From a virus, in IMG/VR virus record IMGVR_UViG_3300028198_000005, positions 1 through 55,796 of that record: a DNA stretch of 55,796 nucleotides; one strand, written 5' to 3'. The position numbers and the translations under genes are program-made. Below are positions 12,921 through 34,419 of this stretch, in pieces (position 1 is the stretch's first letter; each line of letters begins with the position of its first letter). The notes beneath the pieces were generated by a model that saw only the letters and a program-made list of their open reading frames with translations, ran no database searches and was not told where the DNA came from.

Positions 12921-12944
12921 CGAAAAACCCACTTTATTGAAACT

Positions 12945-18479: not shown

Positions 18480-18701
18480 TTAAAGTATATTTGGCATACG
18501 CCGCCGCGTTACTACTATCTCGGCCGCTTTCCCGATCCTCTTAAGATTAGCCTCACGCTTGAACTGCTCCCAAGTGGGGCGATCGCTTTCGGCGGTCGTC
18601 ATGTCTAGTTGCAGAGCTTTCCACTCTTTCATGTCGGCCCTTCGGAGTGCTTGAACGCGTAGGGCAAGTTGCTTGAATTGGTTGTCTGTCATGTCTCTCA
18701 T
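18480..18701 (-). CDS. Hypothetical helical protein (73 aa)
   Basis: MRDMTDNQFKQLALRVQALR, helical and basic, ending TRRRMPNIL. No family recognised. Confidence 0.7.
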   Translation of the reverse strand: MRDMTDNQFKQLALRVQALRRADMKEWKALQLDMTTAESDRPTWEQFKREANLKRIGKAAEIVVTRRRMPNIL

Positions 18702-18711
18702 AACTGGGTTT

Positions 18712-18740
18712 ATTGTCTCAAAAAACTGATAAGGTTGCAA
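18712..18740 (-). promoter_or_regulatory. Promoter inside duplicated segment
   Basis: TTGCAA, 17 bp, GACAAT; 10 bases to the ATG at 18701. Identical to the promoter at 23904-23932. Confidence 0.75.
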
Positions 18741-18744
18741 GCTT

Positions 18745-18936
18745 TTATTCGCACTCGCGGCATTGGAACCAGTCGGTATCAGTCCATTGGCTGGCCTCTT
18801 CATGGCTAATGTGAAGCTCTTCATTGCATCCGCAGCAGGATACCAGTACTTTTTCGTTAGCCTTTTTGACTGCCTCTCGGCGGTTCCGGAGGTTGAAGTG
18901 TCGGCGAATTTCGGTCATTGTCATTGTGTTTTTCAT
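18745..18936 (-). CDS. Zinc-ribbon protein (63 aa), duplicated
   Basis: Basic helical N-terminus (MTEIRRHFNLRNRREAVKKA), then a C-terminal ribbon with CCGC and CREC cysteine pairs. The last 34 residues are nearly identical to the protein at 23937-24101. Confidence 0.75.
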   Translation of the reverse strand: MKNTMTMTEIRRHFNLRNRREAVKKANEKVLVSCCGCNEELHISHEEASQWTDTDWFQCRECE

Positions 18937-23665: not shown

Positions 23666-23893
23666 TCAAAAAAGTTCAATTAATTTATCGATCCTTTCCC
23701 GAAGCATTTCGGCCCTGTCGTTAGCTTCTGCCAACGCCTTGGTCAAGAATGTGTTTCCATTCTCGGCTTCCATCCAATCGCTGGACACTTTGCAGATCGA
23801 TTGAATCTCGATTAGCTCGCTGCTGATTTGTGCCTTCTCCTTGCTGATCTCCTTGACCTGCTCCAATGTCATTTCATTTACATTAACTTTCAT
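23666..23893 (-). CDS. Hypothetical coiled-coil protein (75 aa)
   Basis: MKVNVNEMTLEQVKEISKEK, helical throughout, ending MLRERIDKLIELF. No family recognised. Confidence 0.7.
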   Translation of the reverse strand: MKVNVNEMTLEQVKEISKEKAQISSELIEIQSICKVSSDWMEAENGNTFLTKALAEANDRAEMLRERIDKLIELF

Positions 23894-23903
23894 AACTGGG
23901 TTT

Positions 23904-23932
23904 ATTGTCTCAAAAAACTGATAAGGTTGCAA
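23904..23932 (-). promoter_or_regulatory. Promoter inside duplicated segment
   Basis: TTGCAA, 17 bp, GACAAT; 10 bases to the ATG at 23893. Identical to 18712-18740. Confidence 0.75.
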
Positions 23933-23936
23933 GCTT

Positions 23937-24101
23937 TTATTCGCATTCGTGGCATTGGAACCAGTCCAGATCATTCCAGTTTGCAGCCTCTTCTTGGCTG
24001 ATGCGAAGCTCTTCGTTGCATCCGCAGCAGGACACTAACACCTCGCTGGTAATCACTTGGCCGTTGTCGATAGGGTTCACTATTTCGTTGTTCTTATTCA
24101 T
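23937..24101 (-). CDS. Zinc-ribbon protein (54 aa), duplicated
   Basis: MNKNNEIVNPIDNGQVITSE, then VLVSCCGCNEEL and QCHECE. The C-terminal ribbon is nearly identical to that at 18745-18936, while the N-terminus is unrelated. Confidence 0.7.
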   Translation of the reverse strand: MNKNNEIVNPIDNGQVITSEVLVSCCGCNEELRISQEEAANWNDLDWFQCHECE

Positions 24102-27613: not shown

Positions 27614-27623
27614 GTGTAATATA
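27614..27623 (+). promoter_or_regulatory. Late promoter box
   Basis: GTGTAATATA followed by AGGA and the ATG at 27628. Confidence 0.7.
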
Positions 27624-27627
27624 AGGA

Positions 27628-29175
27628 ATGAGTGAACTGCATACTTTAGCCAGCAATGGCAACATAAAAGGTATTAGAAAAGCTTTATCCGAAGCAGCCG
27701 TCAAGAGAGCATTTTCATCTTTGGACGAGGAACTGGGCTGGACCCCTTTGCATTATGCCGCAAATTACAGCAAGGCGAAAGTAGTACAGGTTATATTAGA
27801 AGCGGGCATATCTCCGAATATTAAAAGCTCTCCCCCTCAGCACGAAAAACAAAGCGACTGGAATCTTGCTCTCCAGAAAAACGAACATGCTAAAGACCCT
27901 GTCGTATACCCTATGGACGTAGCAGAAGGCCCTAGTCGTCTTAAAATAATAAACAACTTAAAAGCAAAAGGGGGTAAATTTTACGGAAACGACATGACTC
28001 TTCACCAAGCTATTCAAATGCAGGATATGGATGAAGTAGAAACTCTCTTAGAAGATGAGTCTATAAGAGTAAACGGCAGAGATGGCCGGGGGTGGATGGC
28101 TATACATTATGCCGTAGAACTAAACAGTCAAGAGATGTGCGATTTATTATTTGAGTATAAAGCTAACCCTAATGGCTCCTGTCATGACGGACAGTTAAAT
28201 CCTTATGAAATTGCCTTAGACAACAACCATGAAAATCTTTTAAAATACCTAAAAACTAAAGGTTGCCTCAAAAACCCAAATAGAAACAAAACGAGACAGC
28301 ACAAGACGGTATCGACCACGAAAGTCGGAGTAGCCAAAGACCCTAGAGAATACAAGTCAATGGAGTTTCAGGACGTTAAACAGGCGCCGAAAAGCTTATG
28401 GGGTAAAATGACAGAGTCTAAATCCGACAGGGAAGCTCGAGACGCGGCCCTACAAAAAGAACATGACGAAAGAAGTGCTCGAATAAAAGAAGCTACCGAC
28501 AAAGCCAAAAAAGACGAGGAGAGAATAAAAAGGTCCAGAGTTATAACATGGAAATGGGGAGAAGATCCATTTTCCTGCAAAGGGGACTCTATTACTTACG
28601 ATAGCCCCTGTGAATCTTATACATATTTTATGGATATTGTGGGGTATTCCAAAAAAAGCACCGCAATGCAGAAGAAAGTGATGGATGATCTTATAGCTAT
28701 AGTTAAAGGGACAGAAGGCTATCAACAGGCCCAAAGACAAGGTAAGCTGATTGTTCTTCCGACTGGAGACGGAATGGCTCTCGTCTTCTTCAACAGCGTT
28801 CACGCCGCTTTTAAATGTGCCGTTGACGTGGGTAAGAAATGCTACAAGAGCGCAAGCATAGGTTTAAGGAATGGGCTTTATACAGGCCCAGTTGTCCCTG
28901 TGAGAGATATAAACAATAACCCTAATGTTAGTGGGCACGGGATCAATATGGCTCAAAGATGTATGGATGCTGGAGATAATGACCATATTTTAATCTCTAA
29001 TGGTGTATATATGAATGTTAGTGAAATGGGTATTCCGGGTCTAAAATTTGAAGATTGGGGGCCAGTTATTGTAAAACATGGATCTACGGTCCACCTTCAC
29101 ACAGCTTACGGCCCCAACTTCGGTCGCACGGAGTTTCCCGACTGGAGAGGAACAAAGAAAGCAGAATACAAATGA
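27628..29175 (+). CDS. Ankyrin-repeat / class III nucleotidyl cyclase fusion
   Basis: 515 residues. Residues 1-210 contain ankyrin repeats (GWTPLHYAANYSKAKVVQVI and GWMAIHYAVELNSQEMCDLL). A charged linker/coiled coil spans about 250-305. Residues about 330-500 form a class III cyclase domain: FMDIVGYS with metal ligand D336, LPTGDGMALVFF with D381, and HGINMAQR with transition-state residues N440 and R444. The lysine that selects purines in canonical enzymes is replaced by Leu (L377), so the base used is uncertain. It likely makes a cyclic nucleotide in the cytoplasm. ATGA overlap with the next gene. Confidence 0.8.
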   Translation: MSELHTLASNGNIKGIRKALSEAAVKRAFSSLDEELGWTPLHYAANYSKAKVVQVILEAGISPNIKSSPPQHEKQSDWNLALQKNEHAKDPVVYPMDVAEGPSRLKIINNLKAKGGKFYGNDMTLHQAIQMQDMDEVETLLEDESIRVNGRDGRGWMAIHYAVELNSQEMCDLLFEYKANPNGSCHDGQLNPYEIALDNNHENLLKYLKTKGCLKNPNRNKTRQHKTVSTTKVGVAKDPREYKSMEFQDVKQAPKSLWGKMTESKSDREARDAALQKEHDERSARIKEATDKAKKDEERIKRSRVITWKWGEDPFSCKGDSITYDSPCESYTYFMDIVGYSKKSTAMQKKVMDDLIAIVKGTEGYQQAQRQGKLIVLPTGDGMALVFFNSVHAAFKCAVDVGKKCYKSASIGLRNGLYTGPVVPVRDINNNPNVSGHGINMAQRCMDAGDNDHILISNGVYMNVSEMGIPGLKFEDWGPVIVKHGSTVHLHTAYGPNFGRTEFPDWRGTKKAEYK

Positions 29176-29375
29176 CGAATAAAAGAAATAGACTAAATCA
29201 CTTATTTATCGTCTTTATGTTAATTTTGTTACTTCTTTTCGGGTTAACCTATTCTCCTAAAGCGCCCGTAAAAAGAACCGGTATTTTCATCCCTTTATTC
29301 GGTCATTTTTACCCCGAAGCATCAACCAATGTTTTTTCGATGCCGAATTCAAGATATGGGTCGGGGATAAGATAA
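29172..29375 (+). CDS. Single-helix membrane protein (67 aa)
   Basis: Basic N-terminus MTNKRNRLNHLFIVFMLILL, one membrane helix, then a Pro/Phe-rich tail. Coupled to the cyclase gene by an ATGA overlap, so it may work with it; this is inference from position only. Confidence 0.6.
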   Translation: MTNKRNRLNHLFIVFMLILLLLFGLTYSPKAPVKRTGIFIPLFGHFYPEASTNVFSMPNSRYGSGIR

Positions 29376-29389
29376 GAAAGCTAAATAAA

Positions 29390-29551
29390 ATGAGCAGAAC
29401 CACGAGAAACAATTTAAACCTAGAAACCGGCAGGTCAGAGAAGACAAGAGATAATAAGCCCCGCTGTGAATGCTGCTGTAATCCTCGTCGCAGCAAATAC
29501 GGCAATAAAAAAGAAAAGCTAACCATACAAGAGAGAAAGGAAATCGGATAA
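29390..29551 (+). CDS. Small Cys-rich protein (53 aa)
   Basis: MSRTTRNNLNLETGRSEKTR; a CECCCNPRRSK cluster may bind metal. Its stop TAA shares a base with the next start. Confidence 0.5.
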   Translation: MSRTTRNNLNLETGRSEKTRDNKPRCECCCNPRRSKYGNKKEKLTIQERKEIG

Positions 29552-30411: not shown

Positions 30412-30762
30412 ATGAAATTCCATTTGTATTTAAAACAGCTTAGATCCGTACGGTTCAAGGACACTAAAAAATTATGCATGATGCTTGGCGTCTCAAAAGA
30501 GAAATGGCGTAAAATTGAACGAGGAATAAACCCTCCGCCTCGAAGATCGCTATTAAACAAGTTTTGCGTTTTGACGGCCGCTTTAAGTTATGAACAGGCC
30601 CAGCTTTTCGAGCTCGCTAGAAGATGGACGCCGCATGAAAATACTAACACGGGTCACCATAGACTGCTGAGCGAAAACTCTAGTCCTGAATGGATCCAAG
30701 CGATGACGAAAGAAAATACCCCTGACTACCCTATACCCAAAGAGTGGTCTAGGTCTAATTAA
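30412..30762 (+). CDS. Cro/C1-type HTH protein (116 aa)
   Basis: Residues about 8-55 (RFKDTKKLCMMLGVSKEKWR then KIERGINPPPRRSLL) fit an XRE-family helix-turn-helix. The C-terminal part is disordered and Asn/Pro-rich. Probable DNA-binding regulator of late or host genes. Confidence 0.65.
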   Translation: MKFHLYLKQLRSVRFKDTKKLCMMLGVSKEKWRKIERGINPPPRRSLLNKFCVLTAALSYEQAQLFELARRWTPHENTNTGHHRLLSENSSPEWIQAMTKENTPDYPIPKEWSRSN

Positions 30763-33738: not shown

Positions 33739-34419
33739 ATGCCGAGAAAAAAGAAGCTTAAATTTGAAGATTGTATAGAGCAAATTGACTCAGAAATAAG
33801 AAAAAGAAAAAGCAGATGGAACTTGACTGCTCTTTCTTGGATGGATTTTGATGATGTTTCTCAGATAATTAGAATTCATATTTTTAAAAAGTGGCATTTA
33901 TATGACCAGTCTAAAGCTTTAGCTCCTTGGATAAATACTCTTATCTCTAATCAAATTAAAAATTTGATCAGAAACAATTATGGAAATTACTGTAGACCTT
34001 GTTTAAAATGTGCAGCCGCAGAGTCCGATTCTCTATGCTACATCTACGGAACCCAAAGTTCTGCTTGTCCGCTATTCGCTCAGTGGGAAAAAACAAAAAA
34101 AGCTGCGTACTTAACTAAACTTCCCTCACCCCTAGAATCGGTAGAGCACGAAACTGAAAATATGCAGTTGCAGGAATTTGACTTTGATACGGTATTAGAA
34201 AAACTAAATAAGCAGCTCAAAGAAAAACTAAAAGAAAACGAATGGATAGTCTATCAGAACCTTTTTCTAAAAAGAAAAACAGAACAAGAAGTGGCGAAAA
34301 TGCTAGGGTATAAAACTTCAGAAAAGAACAGGAGTCCCGGATACAAACAAATCAAAAACATAAAAAAATCTATTATAGAAAAAGCTAAGGAAATAGTATC
34401 GGAGGATATGCATATATGA
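33739..34419 (+). CDS. Phage RNA polymerase sigma factor (late, gp55-like)
   Basis: 226 residues. Region 2-like helices span 35-80 (FDDVSQIIRIHIFKKWHLYD; LAPWINTLISNQIKNLIRNN). A Cys-rich insertion follows (C85, C88, C91, C100, C110: CRPCLKC...C...C), probably zinc-binding. A region 4-like HTH is near 165-215 (KRKTEQEVAKMLGYKT). Such proteins direct host RNA polymerase to phage late promoters, here plausibly the GTGTAATATA boxes. AGG precedes the ATG; ATGA overlap with the next gene. Confidence 0.75.
   Translation: MPRKKKLKFEDCIEQIDSEIRKRKSRWNLTALSWMDFDDVSQIIRIHIFKKWHLYDQSKALAPWINTLISNQIKNLIRNNYGNYCRPCLKCAAAESDSLCYIYGTQSSACPLFAQWEKTKKAAYLTKLPSPLESVEHETENMQLQEFDFDTVLEKLNKQLKEKLKENEWIVYQNLFLKRKTEQEVAKMLGYKTSEKNRSPGYKQIKNIKKSIIEKAKEIVSEDMHI

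Follow-up and report, generated by a model that had tools for sequence, protein, structure and literature searches.

Phages are known to destroy cyclic-nucleotide signals, by means of Acb1 and Apyc1 (PMC9117128). The Pycsar cyclase PycC shares its superfamily fold and its pair of metal-binding aspartates with the protein described here, and its reported pocket residues are R142 and Q144 in EaPycC and K104 and F109 in AnPycC (PMC11224242). Ankyrin repeats are found, as here, in proteins secreted by ankyphages, and virus-encoded class III-like folds are present in BFVD among giant-virus proteins and CHASE2-type phage proteins. The gene in question lies in a stretch of virus DNA of 55,796 nucleotides (nt), hereafter the window (IMG/VR virus record IMGVR_UViG_3300028198_000005, positions 1 to 55,796), and is a complete open reading frame (ORF) at 27628-29175 on the plus strand that starts with ATG and encodes 515 amino acids (aa). 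An earlier note on this DNA had proposed a phage-borne fusion of ankyrin repeats to a class III cyclase; this is borne out by the ORF, the Pfam ankyrin match, a profile search of the PDB and the predicted fold, and the gene is called the ankyrin-cyclase gene below. The results suggest that a lineage of uncultured phages may send a chemical signal of its own within the cells it infects. A conserved, late-controlled phage family apparently able to make a cyclic nucleotide would be the reverse of signal destruction by phages. No phage- or virus-encoded class III cyclase of the ankyrin-cyclase type was found in the open-access papers searched; novelty is provisional, as subscription papers and preprints were outside the scope of the search.

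In the 515-aa protein a pair of ankyrin blocks is joined by a charged helical linker to a C-terminal class III-type cyclase domain. The Pfam family Ank_2 matched strongly (E=1.8e-18) over residues 4-67 and 121-216. Block 1 (residues 4-67, 27637-27828) was recognized by Pfam and by phmmer against the PDB and was modelled by AlphaFold2 (AF2) with a predicted local distance difference test score (pLDDT) of about 77-95; block 2 (residues about 121-216, 27988-28275) was recognized by Ank_2 over residues 125-216 and its pLDDT was mostly 74-94. The charged linker (28273-28563) is the least conserved part of the protein, with a long helix predicted at residues 265-304, and the nucleotidyl cyclase domain covers about residues 326-500 (28603-29127). 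The Pfam score of Guanylate_cyc, 13.1 bits, is below the cut-off of 21.9, and the PADLOC and NCBIfam matches of the protein concern the ankyrin part only and are far below any family cut-off. In a search of the PDB, a profile of the cyclase domain picked out class III cyclases, among them 3mr7 (E=3e-13) and Rv1900c (E=4e-11). A shallow alignment left the cyclase part of the full-length AF2 model poor; a separate model of the domain, built with its bacterial relatives, reached a pLDDT of 93.9 and a predicted template modelling score of 0.89. This model matched class III cyclases in Foldseek (E about 1e-11) and in the VIA fold comparison (Z about 19-20, up to 19.7). With the Pfam score sub-threshold, the identity of the predicted cyclase is settled by its relatives, the PDB profile matches and the modelled fold.

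The roles given here to active-site residues, including that of K483 as the triphosphate-binding lysine, are those we presume from mammalian IIC2 and related cyclases. The metal aspartates and the Asn/Arg pair announced by the earlier note are indeed present. D336 in FMDIVGYS (28633-28635) and D381 in LPTGDGMA (28768-28770), the putative metal ligands, are invariant in the alignment of phage homologues (A1) and in alignment A3, as is K483 in VKHG (29074-29076); the transition-state pair N440/R444 in GINMAQR (28945-28959) is invariant in A1, and in A3 the arginine is invariant and the asparagine is conserved in at least 90%. Across the phage family all five residues are invariant, and they are nearly so in the bacterial relatives. 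The modelled domain has the catalytic fold, the two metal aspartates and the transition-state Asn and Arg that define class III. As a complete predicted cyclase on one chain, the protein would be expected to form a homodimer with two sites. Rv1900c, Ma1120, 3mr7 and CyaB share with it the fold, the metal pair, the Asn/Arg pair and the triphosphate lysine; they differ from it by an identity of only about 20%, by their Lys/Asp or Glu/Cys pairs and by the absence of an ankyrin sensor. The giant-virus and CHASE2-type proteins of BFVD have 10-18% identity and other architectures, and no ankyrin-cyclase phage family was among the matches.

The putative base-selecting positions are occupied by L377 (28756-28758), where adenylyl cyclases have their purine-selecting lysine, and by N433 (28924-28926), where Rv1900c and 3mr7 have Asp. 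Neither the Lys and Asp/Thr of adenylyl cyclases nor the Glu and Cys/Gly of guanylyl cyclases are present. The earlier note had drawn attention to the leucine at the lysine position; the leucine is there, but it marks the whole family and not a change in the phage. Since nearly all bacterial relatives have the same Leu, and Asn at the second position is invariant in A3, both residues are common to the bacterial relatives and the phage family, and L377 is read as a family trait, not as the mark of a shift to pyrimidines specific to the phage. The pair is unlike the adenylyl (Lys/Asp), guanylyl (Glu/Cys) and reported PycC pockets, and the nucleoside triphosphate (NTP) used is not readable from it.

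Searching viral contigs with the cyclase domain yielded 40 loci with 69-100% identity, and a profile scan added one more distant locus, L150 (59% identity). The family consists of these 41 viral contigs besides the window and L042, a phage contig binned in a metagenome-assembled genome (MAG). All 35 full-length copies aligned with the window have the ankyrin part, the linker and the cyclase, and the architecture is the same in L150; in one copy (L026), partial or broken, the open frame is limited to 226 aa, and two (L039 and L040) are truncated at contig ends. L042 (84% identity) is the sole close relative in the genome collection; as the contig is of a phage and syntenic with the window, its Flavobacteriales label was not accepted as a host. 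No match to the cyclase domain was found in 50,697 phage records, where only the ankyrin parts matched; weak ankyrin-only matches were seen in Wolbachia phage WO. Identity to the window falls most steeply in the linker and least in the cyclase. Pairwise ratios of nonsynonymous to synonymous substitution (dN/dS), obtained as simple Nei-Gojobori counts with some pairs saturated, are about 0.005-0.05 for the cyclase, 0.04-0.12 for the ankyrin part and 0.03-0.16 for the linker. The cyclase part is under strong purifying selection, the ankyrin part is likewise under purifying selection, and this is a phage gene family rather than a stray gene. The copy at L007:9050-10585 looks mosaic: its first 150 bases are nearer L006 (82% vs 65%) and the remainder is nearer the window.

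A late box of its own had also been claimed for the gene, and the claim holds well beyond the window. The late-promoter-like box GTGTAATATA (also written GTGTAATA; 27614-27623, plus strand) lies 14 nt before the ATG. Among 30 homologues, 26 have GTGTAA 14-17 nt upstream of their start, compared to 0.8% of random 30-mers. Over 589 predicted starts on 26 contigs, GTGTAA is the most enriched upstream hexamer (100 genes vs 7 in a wider background stretch, 25-fold). It also precedes the portal-like gene (38276), the tail-fibre gene (53384) and others in the window, where all boxes preceding a start are confined to the half at 25-55 kb. We infer that the box is a late promoter from the kinds of gene it precedes; should it act as a -10-like element, transcription would begin near the ATG. 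A candidate reader of the box is the Sigma-70 region 2-like protein encoded at 33739-34419 (plus strand), which has a Pfam Sigma70_r2 match just above the cut-off and a match to phrog_1740. The promoter-like box of the phage group, (A)AGTGTAATA, is found close to start codons on both strands between 25779 and 53384 of the window, possibly giving near-leaderless mRNAs.

Relatives of the domain were confirmed in 227 bacterial stretches, mostly from Acidobacteriota and Verrucomicrobiota MAGs, with a domain identity of 37-45% among the 80 kept, L042 aside. These bacterial LPTGDGMA cyclases, for which we found no family name, have the same Leu at the lysine site, Asn at the aspartate site and NVxGxGIN.AQR motif as the phage protein; their fusion partners are Ser/Thr kinase, TPR or WD40-like parts, not ankyrin. 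The family is sporadic: in the phylum of G003 it occurs in 3 of 140 genomes and, the phage contig aside, in that of G001 in none of 98. In a quick maximum-likelihood tree the 11 phage rows group as a single clade with full support, whose stem is 2.5 changes per column long; the outgroup branches were very long, no PycC sequence was taken in and the exact sister of the phage clade was left unplaced. The phage clade appears to stand beside the Acidobacteriota/Verrucomicrobiota family, and its long stem argues for an old gene held by phages. The earlier note had allowed for a host housekeeping cyclase recently captured and decaying; the long stem and the low cyclase dN/dS contradict this, and recent capture was rejected.

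The kinship with Pycsar suggested by the earlier note found no support. The PADLOC model of PycC, PDLC00734, gave no match to the window protein up to E=1 and is itself unspecific, since it also picks up canonical class III cyclases. The PDB profile matches to E=10 and the 50 fold matches listed contained no PycC entry, and some kinship may remain. When pocket positions are counted from the metal aspartate as in PMC11224242, R142 and Q144 of EaPycC correspond to L377 and T379 of the phage protein, and K104 and F109 of AnPycC to T379 and A384. The Phe at D1-2 of the phage protein occurs in ordinary class III cyclases too, and is uninformative. No PADLOC effector of the PycTM or PycTIR type was detected among the tested window neighbours. 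With no model match, no such partner and a pocket unlike that of EaPycC or AnPycC, membership in Pycsar was rejected. Searches for effectors, receptors and Apyc1-like enzymes covered 16-18 phage records: TIR domains were absent from 16 records, cNMP_binding gave no match above the cut-off in the records searched, which are fragments, and an Apyc1-like metallo-β-lactamase (MBL) phosphodiesterase was not found in 15 of 16 records, the exception being an MBL-fold match in G020.

The reading we favour, with a probability of about 0.5, is that the gene encodes a late, ankyrin-regulated class III-type cyclase releasing a cyclic nucleoside monophosphate (cNMP) that acts on a host receptor. The ankyrin part, a likely switch or tether, would bind a partner protein of the host or the phage, which would switch the enzyme on or position it; the enzyme would convert an NTP to a 3',5'-cyclic mononucleotide late in infection, and this product would act on a host receptor and alter the physiology of the infected cell. 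The receptor is placed in the host because neither a cNMP-binding nor a TIR effector was found in the phage records. The late control and the strong constraint on the catalytic domain argue that catalysis is the selected function, and cyclase activity itself is probable. Several points weigh against this reading: the base-selecting pair is non-canonical, and the reaction on the NTP may be other than cyclisation; as the phage records are fragments, effectors not found there prove little; and the bacterial domain family is sporadic (3 of 140 genomes in one phylum that is a host candidate), so that a matching pathway may be lacking in the probable hosts. More ambitiously, and tentatively, the phage would run a whole second-messenger pathway late in infection, in which the ankyrin-cyclase senses a partner, makes a cyclic nucleotide, possibly with an unusual base, and brings the infected cell, or after lysis the cells around it, into a state of advantage to the phage. 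One subclade would be wired to an upstream phage two-component system: in L033, L034 and L036 the ankyrin-cyclase is closely preceded by genes for a response regulator and a histidine kinase, the latter with PAS in L033. The family would make cNMP signalling by phages inside infected cells testable, and, as the base pocket is common to hundreds of uncharacterised Acidobacteriota and Verrucomicrobiota enzymes, one assay would inform on the whole bacterial family.

Competition between phages offers another explanation. For defence or superinfection exclusion, the ankyrin part would sense a constituent of a rival phage, and the messenger would trigger a host-encoded or unrecognised effector that halts the rival, as Pycsar does in bacteria. 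Of the 80 kept loci, 14 terminase relatives extend for 9 kb or more upstream of the terminase, and 4 of these carry the gene, which is therefore accessory in these phages; such a variable slot suits exclusion, as does the greater variability of the ankyrin part and linker than of the cyclase, with the mosaic-like 5' end in L007, as a sensor would have. However, the ankyrin part is itself under purifying selection, expression is apparently late, when exclusion is less useful, and PycC, effector, TIR and cNMP-binding searches were negative over the neighbours and records given above; we regard exclusion as unlikely. The same late box, together with sporadic carriage, disfavours counter-defence, in which an excess of some harmless or competing cyclic nucleotide made by the enzyme would block the host receptor, or the enzyme would replace a messenger depleted by the phage. 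Precedents for such a decoy, an idea of the earlier note, are Apyc1, with which phages attack cNMP signals (PMC9117128), and Panoptes, in which hosts are reported to use decoy nucleotides (PMC12657218); given also that 15 of the 16 records tested gave no Apyc1-like phosphodiesterase, we consider counter-defence quite improbable.

Loss of cyclase activity, with the domain kept as a nucleotide-binding or scaffold module, would agree with the non-canonical Leu/Asn pocket and the sub-threshold Pfam score, but is highly improbable in view of the invariant metal, transition-state and triphosphate positions and of a dN/dS that is the lowest in the protein. The protein might also act outside the bacterium on a eukaryote, as reported for ankyphage ankyrin proteins in sponges; few ankyrin proteins of phages are known, and those have eukaryotic hosts as their targets (PMC7064744), and the weak ankyrin-only matches in phage WO point the same way. 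Against this, the N-terminus (MSELHTLASNGN) has no hydrophobic signal stretch, judged by eye only, neither a phage WO-like nor a sponge-specific context was found, and the late phage box and the bacterial cyclase family argue for action inside the bacterium; a eukaryotic target therefore seems to us most improbable.

The window contig carries a T7/T4-like terminase match, PhoH, the sigma-like protein and structural genes, and its terminase patterns are matched by over 600 stretches of viral contigs. In 11-13 of 24 loci the cyclase has PhoH, sigma-like and terminase-side genes nearby, and in 18 of 24 a helix-turn-helix protein (WRKIERGINPPPR; 30412-30762, plus strand; Pfam HTH_31). A coupling to a small membrane protein, also put forward by the earlier note, stands in part: a membrane-like ORF of 67 aa (29172-29375, plus strand, no PADLOC match) overlaps the cyclase stop as ATGA at 29172, but the arrangement is not conserved. 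Only in the window and in L003, a near copy, does it adjoin the cyclase, and the membrane protein was rejected as a conserved effector; elsewhere other small ORFs follow, often a Cys-rich one. The window has a small Cys-rich ORF (MSRTT...CCCNP) at 29390-29551 (plus strand), with a similar ORF 3' of the cyclase in many homologues.

The two-component genes are at L033:6748-8389 and L036:7164-8414, with a 190-aa gene of no assigned function between them and the ankyrin-cyclase. Other phage contigs of the group encode an ammonium transporter, a PII protein, a DUF1552 protein and a PAS-like protein (L018:17515-18735 (-), L028:3056-3397, L018:12996-14279 (-) and L010:5461-5802, respectively). With two-component, PII, ammonium transporter and PAS genes near the cyclase, these phages therefore carry other signalling genes, a point in favour of the preferred reading. 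Type II pseudopilin-like genes lie next to or upstream of the cyclase in L006, L009, L010, L012, L013, L014 and L029. In the phylum of a Verrucomicrobia MAG, 139 of 145 genomes had pseudopilin matches, vs none of 61 in the Bacteroidota one (E 1e-10; the E limits differed), which hints weakly at a Verrucomicrobiota-like host for the pseudopilin-carrying subclade. Elsewhere in the window, the ORFs at 18480-18824 (-) and 23666-23974 (-) have the stretch SNA.NANKSLQPYQFFETINPVM in common, and those near 12937, 16440 and 21981 share an R/K-rich stretch; both sets look like dispersed repeats rather than genes.
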